Below, piece after piece: positions 26,809-30,656 of a DNA stretch of 64,000 nucleotides. This DNA comes from an uncultured Spirochaetales bacterium. GTDB lineage: Bacteria > Spirochaetota > Spirochaetia > Sphaerochaetales > Sphaerochaetaceae. Location: the NCBI GenBank assembly GCA_949297785.1, contig CASFTW010000001.1:186001-250000 (forward strand). Reading direction: 5' to 3'. Below the pieces are notes generated by a model. It was not told the origin of the DNA and made no database searches. It saw only the letters and a list, made by a program, of their open reading frames with translations. Position numbers and translations under genes: made by a program. Position 1 is the first letter of the stretch. Each line of letters begins with the position of its first letter.

Positions 26809-26910
26809 TTTTAAAGCAGTTTTAAGTCAGTACCGTATTAATAAAATTTTATAATCGAATGACTTTTTACCCTGCTATTAACGATTTACTGATAATATTG
26901 TTCTGCAAAA

Positions 26911-26947
26911 TACAAAAAATCCTACTGCCGGTTAGGGCAATAGGATT
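26911..26947 (-). terminator. Terminator of the Ig-like lipoprotein gene
   Basis: Minus strand: stem AATCCTA (with one A/C mismatch, then TGCC) pairing with GGCA and TAGGATT, followed by a TTTTTT run. It lies 22 nt after the stop codon of the minus-strand gene. The same hairpin faces the end of the preceding plus-strand lipoprotein gene and could serve both. Confidence 0.8.
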
Positions 26948-26969
26948 GCGAATTAAAATTCTTCTGAAT

Positions 26970-29900
26970 TCATTGTTTTGTCAGTTCTGTTTTTGCTATT
27001 TCCATGCCACCTGAATACATAGAGAAATAGATTGAACCATCCTCATAGATTATCAGGTTAATTTTTGCATCCGTATCAGACTGGATAACATCAAGAGAAT
27101 AAATCGAGCATTTACATCCTAAGTCATCTGTTGTTTCTGTTTCGAATTTCTGATCAACAATTACAGCAAAACCAGATAACGATGATCCATCAACAATTAT
27201 ATCGTTTTGAGTAACAGTCAATCGAATATTCATAACTGTGCCTGAATATGTACCATGAAAAATAGATGGAATATCTATCACTGGTGGATCAACAGTCGGA
27301 TCATCGGGAATTTGACCTGTAGTCTCGTCGATAATATTGATTGCATTTGTTATGTATCCTCCTTCATCGCAGAAATAGAACATAATATCGTGAATACCAT
27401 TATCATATACAGACAAAGCTACAATATAGTTTCCTGATGAAGAGGAGAATTGAAGCGCATAACCAGATGTATCTTCGCCTCCTATTGAATTACTGAATTT
27501 CTGCCGGCTGATTATAACTGTGTCATCTGAAATTAAATATTCTGAGCCCAAATCATCAGTTATACGGATGTCAGCATTACTGATTTCAAAATTCAGCAAT
27601 TGTCCCTCAGGGGTGTAACCTGTGAAATTACCTTGGAAAATAACAGGAATCGTTATTCTCACGTTTCCTAAATCAGTATCAAGCATGGAGAAGAGAAGAT
27701 CACTATGCATATCTCCTTCACCGAACATATCTCCATTTAGGCGAAGGAATGTATTTGCAGAATTAAGTTCAGCTCCTGTTGCTTCTCCCATACCGACTAT
27801 GCTGAAAAAGTCCAGACTTACGTTTCTTCTATTTGAATCTTGATATGAAGAGCCTGAACCGGATATTTTGTATTCAATCGGCTCTTCTGGCATAATGTAA
27901 TCTGTTACAACTACATCTGTAAATCCGAACTCAAAATCTTTGATATTCTCAGGGATGCTCAAATCTTTAACAGTCACAGCTACATTTCCGCTGAAATTGA
28001 ATTGCTCCCAATCATATTCTCTTGGCTTCAGCTTATAATGGAATTTTTCCCCTGTCTCAGATGTCATCAACTCTTCGCTTGACTGTATCTGTGAAACAAC
28101 TCCATTTGCATACATGAATCCACCGAAAACCTTGAATATGCTTTTTATGATATCGTAGCTGAGATATGAGTAATCTTCACCATTGATAGTGAATTTCATG
28201 ATCTGTGAATCCATTGTGTCATTACTTAATTGATACGCATATACAACCATCTCAACTGAGCCATACACAGACATATCCGCTTTGACAGTGAAGATTCCTG
28301 GATCTTCCGGAGTACAGCTCTCATTGAGAATATTTTCAGTAACCTCAATTTCATATGAATTTACAGTAATATCCTCTTCAAAGAATTCAGATGCATATCT
28401 ACTCAGTACTTCAAGAGTGGAGTCATCAAAGACATAATGAGTTTCCATATCTTCTTCCATATCTTCTGTTGGAAGTATCAGGTAATACAATCCGTAAAAA
28501 CGCGGAGCAAATTCGGTTGAGATTTCAAGATCATCATACTTTTTTGATTCTTCATCTTTAATCAGAGGGATATCATTTTCTTCAATTTTATCATTCGAAA
28601 CATTAGCCCAACCGTCTATAGTAATCTGGCCGCCAAGACTTGACATAGTATGCCACTGATTATCCAGTTCCACGATTCTGAAAACGAGAACTCCCTTTCC
28701 TGAAGGTGTGAGGCCGGATTTTTCGCAGTCAACAATAACAGTTCCGACATCAGGAACATCCAATGTTATTTCTTCCATAATGACGCCGACTTTATCGAGC
28801 TGAGTTATGGCCATATCCAATACCTTTCCAAGTCTTGACAGCAGATCTGTATTGGAGAAGGCTAGGGCCACAGGAATAAAAGTATCACTGTCTATTTCAA
28901 GAGGAACATTATCTACAGTAGCAGATGTGGATACAGGTTCAACTCCTGTAATTTTGTCGTTTTCTACTGTCAGAGTACTTTCATAGTCAAGTGTGACCTG
29001 TTTGTTCTCTTTGTCCTTGGCTTTGCCGATTTCGATCTTGAGATCGTACTTCGAAGAAGATCCAATACTTCTTGCTACTGGTTTGCTGACTGCAGAGATA
29101 TAGCCTTCTTCAATTGTCATATTCGGAATATCAATTCCGTTCAGAAGAACTCTTCCACCAGAAGAAAGTGCTTCCTGTACTTTACCAAACAGACTGTTGA
29201 TAGTACTCTCAACAACAAATTCATCTTCTGTTATTTTTTCAACAAGAGAACCTTCTTCCGTAAGTTCCGGCTCTTTTCCGGGTTCAGGATCCGGTTCTAC
29301 AACTTCAATTTTCCAGTGTGCATAAAGTGTAATATCACTGGTAATCGGTGTCGAGAAATCAAATGCAGTTTCAGCATCAAAAGATTCATACCAGCCTTCA
29401 AATGTATAGCCTGCAAGAGAGGGATCAGATGAAGGTTCAGGAATCTTTTCTCCTTCATTTACCTTGATTTCAGAAGGAATACCAGTTACATCAACTTCAG
29501 CATCAGCTGGTTTGTTTGCATCAAATGTGACAGTGTATTTTGTAATCTCAGTACCTTCTTTTATCCATTTTGCATAAAGTGTGGTATTTTCAAAAATGGC
29601 TGTTTCAAAGTTAAAGGGCGTATCAGTGTCAGTAGTTGTATACCAGCCCATGAATTCATAGCCGTCAAGGGTAGGTGATGTAGGTGGTTCTTGGACTTTT
29701 GCACCTTCAGTAACTTCAATTGTAGAAGGCATATCATTCACTTCTGCATCAACACCGTCAGGTTTGTTTTCATCAAATGATACTGTGAAGGTGCTCTTTG
29801 GATTTACGACAGACAGTGTTATCTCATCTTTCAGCCCATTTGAAGCAACAGCTGTAATAGTTACTTTACCTTCTTTCAATGCTGTTACAGCACCTGTGGA

Positions 29901-30137
29901 ATCTACAGTAGCTATCGTTTCATCTGACGTTATCCATGTGACCTTTTTATCAGTTGCATCATCAGGTAAAATCGTTGCTGAAAGTTGAGTAATTGTTTCT
30001 TTTTCCACCTCCTGTGATTCTGCTGCACCGGTAATTGTTATGCTTGTGACTTCAATAACCTTAGGCGTATCTTCTTCACAAGAGATAAATGAAAAAGTCA
30101 GCAAAGCTGCAAAAAATATAATGAATGCTTTCTTCAT
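26970..30137 (-). CDS. Large Ig-like (BIG2) and InlB-repeat surface lipoprotein
   Basis: A 1055-residue protein starting with MKKAFIIFFAALLTFSFISC, a lipoprotein signal with an FISC lipobox. Residues about 30-112 form a BIG2 bacterial Ig-like domain (VTSITITG ... LSATILPDDATDKKVTW). Two InlB-B/Listeria-Bacteroides repeats follow (about 117-195 and 198-275), each with DGYEFMGWY or AGYTFEGWY and a TLYAKW or TLYAHW end. A PDPEPGKEPE linker leads to about 770 residues, probably beta-rich, that I cannot assign. BIG2 and InlB repeats occur in adhesins and other secreted proteins. GGAGGGG lies 6 nt before the ATG. The promoter spacer holds a G9 tract, and the divergent neighbour is an XRE regulator. 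Confidence 0.85.
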   Translation of the reverse strand: MKKAFIIFFAALLTFSFISCEEDTPKVIEVTSITITGAAESQEVEKETITQLSATILPDDATDKKVTWITSDETIATVDSTGAVTALKEGKVTITAVASNGLKDEITLSVVNPKSTFTVSFDENKPDGVDAEVNDMPSTIEVTEGAKVQEPPTSPTLDGYEFMGWYTTTDTDTPFNFETAIFENTTLYAKWIKEGTEITKYTVTFDANKPADAEVDVTGIPSEIKVNEGEKIPEPSSDPSLAGYTFEGWYESFDAETAFDFSTPITSDITLYAHWKIEVVEPDPEPGKEPELTEEGSLVEKITEDEFVVESTINSLFGKVQEALSSGGRVLLNGIDIPNMTIEEGYISAVSKPVARSIGSSSKYDLKIEIGKAKDKENKQVTLDYESTLTVENDKITGVEPVSTSATVDNVPLEIDSDTFIPVALAFSNTDLLSRLGKVLDMAITQLDKVGVIMEEITLDVPDVGTVIVDCEKSGLTPSGKGVLVFRIVELDNQWHTMSSLGGQITIDGWANVSNDKIEENDIPLIKDEESKKYDDLEISTEFAPRFYGLYYLILPTEDMEEDMETHYVFDDSTLEVLSRYASEFFEEDITVNSYEIEVTENILNESCTPEDPGIFTVKADMSVYGSVEMVVYAYQLSNDTMDSQIMKFTINGEDYSYLSYDIIKSIFKVFGGFMYANGVVSQIQSSEELMTSETGEKFHYKLKPREYDWEQFNFSGNVAVTVKDLSIPENIKDFEFGFTDVVVTDYIMPEEPIEYKISGSGSSYQDSNRRNVSLDFFSIVGMGEATGAELNSANTFLRLNGDMFGEGDMHSDLLFSMLDTDLGNVRITIPVIFQGNFTGYTPEGQLLNFEISNADIRITDDLGSEYLISDDTVIISRQKFSNSIGGEDTSGYALQFSSSSGNYIVALSVYDNGIHDIMFYFCDEGGYITNAINIIDETTGQIPDDPTVDPPVIDIPSIFHGTYSGTVMNIRLTVTQNDIIVDGSSLSGFAVIVDQKFETETTDDLGCKCSIYSLDVIQSDTDAKINLIIYEDGSIYFSMYSGGMEIAKTELTKQ

Positions 30138-30176
30138 TATTTTCCCCTCCGTCCTGTTTTAAGTTTTTTCATTCAA

Positions 30177-30204
30177 AGAGTACCCCCCCCCATTTGGTTG
30201 TCAA
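30177..30204 (-). promoter_or_regulatory. Promoter of the Ig-like lipoprotein gene with poly-G spacer
   Basis: Minus strand: consensus -35 TTGACA (30199-30204), a 16-nt spacer made of 7 nt plus nine G, and -10 TACTCT (30177-30182), which keeps the first, second and last -10 bases. Initiation would fall near 30170, leaving about 33 nt of leader with a strong ribosome site. One extra G would give the optimal 17-bp spacing. Confidence 0.7.
30183..30191 (-). repeat. Homopolymeric G9 tract (C9 on the plus strand)
   Basis: Nine consecutive C residues on the plus strand, the only G/C homopolymer of this length noticed in the window. It lies exactly inside the promoter spacer of the lipoprotein gene, where a length change by slippage would alter -35/-10 spacing. 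Confidence 0.95.
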
Positions 30205-30253
30205 TGCTTTGACGTGGGTCGATATCAATTTTTACTGATTGCGCCTTTTAAAC

Positions 30254-30282
30254 ATGAAAAATGACCAGTAATGGCGTATAAT
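30254..30282 (+). promoter_or_regulatory. Leaderless promoter of the XRE regulator
   Basis: ATGAAA (30254-30259, -35-like), 17-bp spacer, consensus TATAAT (30277-30282), then 7 nt to the ATG at 30290. Inverted half-sites TTACTG (30232-30237) and CAGTAA (30266-30271) flank and overlap this promoter and could be operator sequences. Confidence 0.65.
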
Positions 30283-30289
30283 GTAAAAT

Positions 30290-30604
30290 ATGAGGAAGAG
30301 AGGGGAAGAGCTTATCCTTATGGAAAACATTACTGAAAACAAAAATTATTCTGATGAACTGGTTGATCCGTTTGAGATGGATTTCTTCAAAGAATTCAAA
30401 AAGGAAGAAACTCCTGGCGGTAATATGCGTTTCTACAGAAAATTGATTGGATTGACTCAAAAAGAACTTGCCTCAAAGCTTGAGACTTCTGTTCAGGTAG
30501 TTTCTCATATGGAGAATAATCTTAGGCTGATAAGCCGTAAAGCGGCCAAAAACTTGCTGATATTTTTGATGTTTCAGTTGCACGGTTTATCTGATAAAAG
30601 ATAA
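30290..30604 (+). CDS. Small XRE-family helix-turn-helix regulator
   Basis: A 104-residue protein with a charged N-terminal half and a Cro/CI-type helix-turn-helix at about residues 45-95: MRFYRKLIGLTQKELASKLETSVQVVSHMENN. The product is cytoplasmic and probably binds DNA. The ATG at 30290 is 7 nt after TATAAT, suggesting a leaderless mRNA. An internal in-frame ATG (30320, MENITEN) with a GAGGGGAAG sequence upstream is an alternative start. It is divergent from the Ig-like lipoprotein gene (152 nt apart), which suggests it controls that gene, itself, or both. Confidence 0.8.
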   Translation: MRKRGEELILMENITENKNYSDELVDPFEMDFFKEFKKEETPGGNMRFYRKLIGLTQKELASKLETSVQVVSHMENNLRLISRKAAKNLLIFLMFQLHGLSDKR

Positions 30605-30636
30605 GCCCATAGAAATCATACGAGATCTATGGGCTT
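30603..30636. terminator. Bidirectional hairpin between XRE and trxB genes
   Basis: A perfect 11-bp stem AAGCCCATAGA/TCTATGGGCTT with a 12-nt loop lies between the convergent XRE gene and trxB. On the minus strand it is followed by a TCTTTT stretch. T tracts are weak on the plus strand. Confidence 0.7.
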
Positions 30637-30656
30637 GTTGTCAGAGTAGGTAAAGC

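Follow-up and report, generated by a model that had tools for sequence, protein, structure and literature searches.

We identified a putative phase-variable promoter of the sigma-70 type at positions 30177–30204 of the minus strand of a 64,000-nt stretch of a draft Sphaerochaetaceae genome (hereafter the window, at its full length), and we estimate at roughly 80% the probability that it switches the expression of a surface lipoprotein. The same design, with different numbers of G, is found upstream of dozens of lipoprotein genes in related genomes, which makes it very likely that the G tract works as an on/off switch prone to slippage. A preliminary description of this DNA had proposed a phase-variable promoter. 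Our results support that proposal, since the module recurs before many lipoprotein genes, the length of the tract differs among orthologues and paralogues, and poly-G is exchanged for poly-C in some of them.

Read on the minus strand from 30204 to 30177, the promoter has the structure TTGACA-ACCAAAT-GGGGGGGGG-TACTCT, within the context ...AAAGCATTGACA ACCAAAT GGGGGGGGG TACTCT TTGAATG.... The −35 element TTGACA (30199–30204) is an exact match to the consensus and is found at the same position before other G tracts. It is followed by a 16-nt spacer (30183–30198) composed of ACCAAAT and nine consecutive G (30183–30191), the proposed site of slippage, and then by the −10 element TACTCT (30177–30182), which abuts the tract. 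On re-reading the sequence, we recovered the minus-strand coordinates, the spacer length and the nine G exactly as first described. A homopolymer of at least about eight nucleotides is thus found between recognisable sigma-70 hexamers. The −10 element matches TATAAT at three of its six positions, namely TA...T, which are the most important positions of this element. It is a poor −10 by consensus, and a consensus promoter scan of the window made no call at 30177–30204. Both hexamers are presumably used as a promoter, and transcription of the lipoprotein gene would start near 30170. The ATG (30137) lies 45 nt downstream of the promoter elements, and the predicted 5′ leader of about 33 nt contains the ribosome binding site GGAGGGG (30144–30150).

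The gene downstream (26970–30137, minus strand) encodes a lipoprotein of 1055 aa with a signal peptide, a lipobox (FISC), a Big_2 domain at residues 30–103 and two List_Bact_rpt/InlB-type domains. This domain search agrees with the earlier assignment of the target as a BIG2/InlB-repeat lipoprotein. The lipobox and the Big_2 and InlB-type repeats suggest that the protein is surface-exposed. Its C-terminal part has a fold without assignment, and a structure model of this part was unusable (mean pLDDT of 43.5 from three sequences). A divergent HTH_3 regulator gene (30290–30604, plus strand) shares the intergenic region with the lipoprotein gene and possesses its own promoter-like site at 30254–30289; its product may regulate the lipoprotein gene. 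The domain search also revealed a CRP-like gene nearby.

The lipoprotein gene and the HTH_3 gene belong to the same variable insert (26809–30656), which comparison with relatives places between a 266-aa lipoprotein gene and a TrxR-like gene; the flanks are rpsA-TPR-lp266 on one side and the TrxR-like gene on the other. In genome G013, whose TrxR is 99% identical, the site is empty and the flanks are about 195 bp apart. It is also empty in G009, G002, G011, G008 and G015, amounting to six relatives with an empty site. At the same site, G014 carries the gene of an unrelated lipoprotein of 952 aa, with a G9 tract beside the gene start (C2:4586–7444, L311), and G012 carries two other genes. The window gene therefore lies in a variable site. 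Judging from these comparisons, the gene and its promoter behave like a cassette that occupies a variable position of the chromosome, and this position serves different poly-G lipoproteins.

In G013, we also observed several copies of a mobile element, bounded by TGAGCTGACCCCCTGAAGGTAGACA...TCAGTTCA, that is inserted between the −35 element and the G9 tract. Copies were found at C1:451297, C6:135879, C13:79 and C18:82 (L218, L220–L222, L319–L322; left ends L323 and L324). All four right ends present a 3-bp duplication (CTA, CTA, TTA and GAC), followed by one base and then G9, and the two left ends present the matching flanks TTGACATTTTCTCTA and TATTGAC. The element seems to target poly-G promoters, and its ends look IS3-like.

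The source genome (G000; a 2.22-Mb draft of 50 contigs) contains about 20 tracts of G8–G10, seven of which have TTGACA or TTGACT 0–10 nt upstream (window, C9:3170, C9:47831, C17:39520, C20:28320, C41:7966 and C27:6802). Five of these tracts are G9 tracts that follow TTGACA and precede genes with a lipobox of 252 to 1056 codons (window on C1, C9:3170, C9:47831, C17:39520 and C20:28320), and at least two of the five lipoproteins (C9:3170 and C17) are Big_2 or InlB-repeat relatives of the window protein. We infer that the window promoter is one of a set of switches, of which at least five would act on lipoprotein genes in this genome. The tract at C41:7966 (L098) is part of a complete TTGACT-N10-G9-TAGCAT module without a long ORF behind it, a candidate orphan promoter or remnant of a lost gene. 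Other tracts are found without TTGACA, and some are located within coding sequence, where they more likely serve to switch the reading frame. Four G8/G9 tracts lie inside or just before the start of an ORF (C9:48582, C4:97430, C4:67260 and C1:161156; respectively, L085, L087, L088 and L092); three of these ORFs are lipoprotein or surface-like, and all four tracts are candidates for translational rather than promoter switching. Finally, a G9/C9 tract at C7:84761 (L090) falls inside an ORF of 919 codons that resembles, by eye, a DUF1156-type DNA methylase, a candidate phase-variable methyltransferase.

We further analyzed the recurrence of the module across Spirochaetota. Across the genus (16 genomes), the pattern TTGAC-N(0-14)-G7 yielded 88 raw matches vs 2 for the reversed pattern, a long tract being counted more than once among raw matches. 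Its G8 form was present in 64 of the 139 genomes of the window's family (f1). Within this family, genus g10 (about 48 genomes) often presented at least 10 raw matches per genome with the uniform arrangement TTGACA-N10-G8..12-TAnnnT. The more complete pattern TTGACA-N(3-14)-G7-TAnnnT (tracts G(8-13)) was found in 70 of 393 Spirochaetota genomes, of which only three are outside the class, and the reversed-pattern control gave a single match. The module was also found in 65 of the 145 genomes of a second family, f3, which its size suggests to be Treponemataceae. A version with a perfect TATAAT, also outside the window's family, was found at 55 loci in a search of 274 genomes (control: 0). The poly-C version gave 17 raw matches genus-wide vs 6 for the control and is therefore the exception.

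The genes that these tracts precede were counted at 69 loci, 29 from genus g1 and 40 from g10, the latter loci having been chosen by the pattern. TAnnnT directly follows the tract at 59 of the 69 loci (24/29 and 35/40, respectively). The start of a gene with a lipobox is located within 130 nt downstream at 53 or more of them (22/29 and 31/40) under a strict rule that misses several obvious lipoproteins, relative to a baseline of only 2 out of the 50 long ORFs of the window. The remaining genes mostly encode ordinary signal peptides, and the ATG is found at a median of 38–39 nt downstream of the tract.

These counts bear on the possibility that a random G9 happens to fall between promoter-like hexamers and serves no function. 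The G9 tract is unremarkable by itself in 64 kb: G8 is expected to yield 0.52 matches, and 14 of 100 shuffles reach two matches, so that a single such tract is not rare. The rarity lies in the setting, the combination of promoter and tract, and not in the G9 run. However, several hundred genomes gave almost no matches to the reversed controls against hundreds to the pattern itself, and almost all of the genes downstream encode secreted lipoproteins. The comparative counts already contradict an origin by chance, which we regard as extremely improbable.

We then compared the length of the tracts, which was taken from assemblies with one genome per species and thus represents a single (consensus) length per locus. 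Lengths of 8 to 17 occur, with a distance between tract and TTGACA of 0 to 13 nt, and nine G is the modal length (19/29 loci in g1 and 27/40 in g10). Several promoters with near-identical flanks differ in their tracts: G11, G10 and G9 at L248, L253 and L265; G10 vs G8 at L249 and L264; and G12 vs G9 in two paralogues of one genome. Of 29 pairs of listed promoters that share the same −35, upstream spacer and −10, 18 differ in the number of G. A tract without TTGACA, at C1:161156 of the source genome, is likewise G8 vs G11 in its G013 counterpart. In orthologues of the window gene, the tract is G11 with a spacer of 20 nt (G009), C8 with a spacer of 15 nt (TTGACATCTCATCCCCCCCCATATGCT; G011) and C7 with a spacer of 13 nt (TTGACAGGAACTCCCCCCCTAAGAT; G015). 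The nearest full-length orthologue (L039) presents G9 followed by TAG without TTGACA, which speaks against the switch. Length differences between conserved flanks were therefore found at sister loci, whereas the flanks have diverged among the orthologues of the window locus. A tract fixed at nine G in all relatives, which the preliminary description had named as evidence against a switch, is not what these orthologues present. The exchange of G for C at the same position suggests that a homopolymer is what is selected, rather than a sequence bound by a protein.

Alternatively, the tract could be a binding site or structural element of fixed length in the promoters of a regulon (for an activator, or as a spacer tuned to A-like DNA), its changes in length being noise. 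A fixed element would also give the predominance of nine G in both genera, and the arrangement TTGACA-N10-G9-TAG is strikingly uniform in g10. However, the range of lengths, even between near-identical promoters, the C tracts of two orthologues and the shifting distance to TTGACA all argue against it. Moreover, poly-G tracts of such length are variable in vivo in Treponema pallidum: the tract of tprL varies from 7 to 11, and of 17 further poly-G targets analyzed, 76% vary in length (PMC7864442). A fixed element is therefore improbable, and variation of the tract within a single population presumably takes place.

In a phase-variable promoter, slipped-strand mispairing at the G tract during replication would lengthen or shorten the tract, each time by one or two bases. 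The spacer would change by the same number, shifting the distance and the helical phase between TTGACA and TAnnnT, and the binding of the sigma-70 holoenzyme would change with it. Transcription at the window locus would then follow the length of the tract, and the lipoprotein would be switched or graded in individual cells. Switching of this kind, by slippage that alters spacer length, is established for porA and tp0126, and 17 nt is the best spacer for tp0126 (PMC7864442). It is plausible that 17 nt, i.e., one extra G, is also the strongest state at the window locus; the 16-nt spacer given by nine G would then be an intermediate state.

The spacers of the assembled genomes are mainly 14–20 nt long with no preference for 17, and some are extreme (9–11 and 22–24). 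This is consistent with a second alternative, in which the tract is phase variable but acts through the binding of a regulator, as proposed for opc, or through DNA shape rather than through spacing. Indeed, in tprL the poly-G and the −10 overlap and the effect does not come from spacing, and the tpr promoters are modulated by a homologue of CRP (PMC7864442); the divergent HTH gene and the CRP-like gene near the window locus are likewise compatible with a regulator. However, in most loci the tract is confined to the spacer between the hexamers and directly adjoins the −10, which is the geometry of porA and tp0126. We consider an action other than by spacing unlikely, although a less remote prospect than a fixed element. 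Three attempts to gain more from spacer lengths were abandoned. A dip at 17 nt in f3 (10 observed vs 20.6 expected; P = 0.004), which suggested that dominant lengths avoid the 17-nt optimum, was dropped because it did not reappear among the 32 loci that the complete TATAAT set added (five at 17 and one at 16). Compensation between the tract and the rest of the spacer was not relied on as proof of selection on spacing: the variance was below that of permuted data in f3 (P = 0.002) but not in f1. Canonical TTGACA-N-TATAAT promoters showed no excess over the reversed control in the window's genus, and therefore provide no yardstick of preferred spacing.

Taken together, these results suggest, with somewhat better than even odds, that a single module (TTGACA, short spacer, G tract and TAnnnT) drives many unrelated secreted lipoprotein genes, often about 10 in a single genome, throughout a large part of two spirochaete families, and that modules travel with gene cassettes in shared chromosomal sites. 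With the module on many lipoprotein genes of a genome, the set of surface lipoproteins that is expressed would vary at random from cell to cell. Among spirochaetes, promoter switching by poly-G is on record for a small number of genes in the syphilis agent; in the uncultured spirochaetes studied here, the same geometry appears as a standard promoter for lipoprotein genes. Stochastic surface variation across the whole genome could then be predicted from the sequence, and the prediction could be tested on metagenome reads that already exist. The mechanism is already known, and the scale of its use appears unreported in the literature that we searched, mostly open access with few subscription papers, where no paper pairing Sphaerochaeta with phase variation was found. 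The work that we found concerns mainly T. pallidum, Neisseria, Campylobacter and Helicobacter, and neither this locus nor the lipoprotein module was found in it. As the preliminary description had surmised for the locus, both the locus and the regulon-like use of a repeated module on lipoprotein genes appear to be undescribed.

Among known systems, the opc promoter of Neisseria meningitidis has a poly-C tract, for which action through a regulator has been proposed. Poly-C (C8 or C7) is also carried by two of the orthologues of the window gene, but the tract of opc is located at the −35 region, whereas theirs lies between the hexamers. N. meningitidis porA presents a homopolymeric G tract between the hexamers of a surface-protein promoter, as in the window, where spacer length would likewise set transcription. 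However, porA is one locus, whereas the window module, known here from sequence alone, is found on many unrelated lipoprotein genes with TAnnnT abutting the tract. The precedents first cited from T. pallidum (tp0126 and the tpr genes) are confirmed by the published work (PMC7864442). The promoters of tprL and tprE/G/J are similar in having a nearby poly-G of about 7–11 whose length varies in vivo, but the tract of tprL overlaps the −10, whereas that of the window is in the spacer. Finally, tp0126, an OmpW homologue from the same phylum, has its poly-G between the −35 and the −10 (PMC7864442), as at the window locus; it differs in that its target is an outer-membrane beta-barrel and not a lipoprotein, in the 16-nt spacer of the window and in belonging to a different family.
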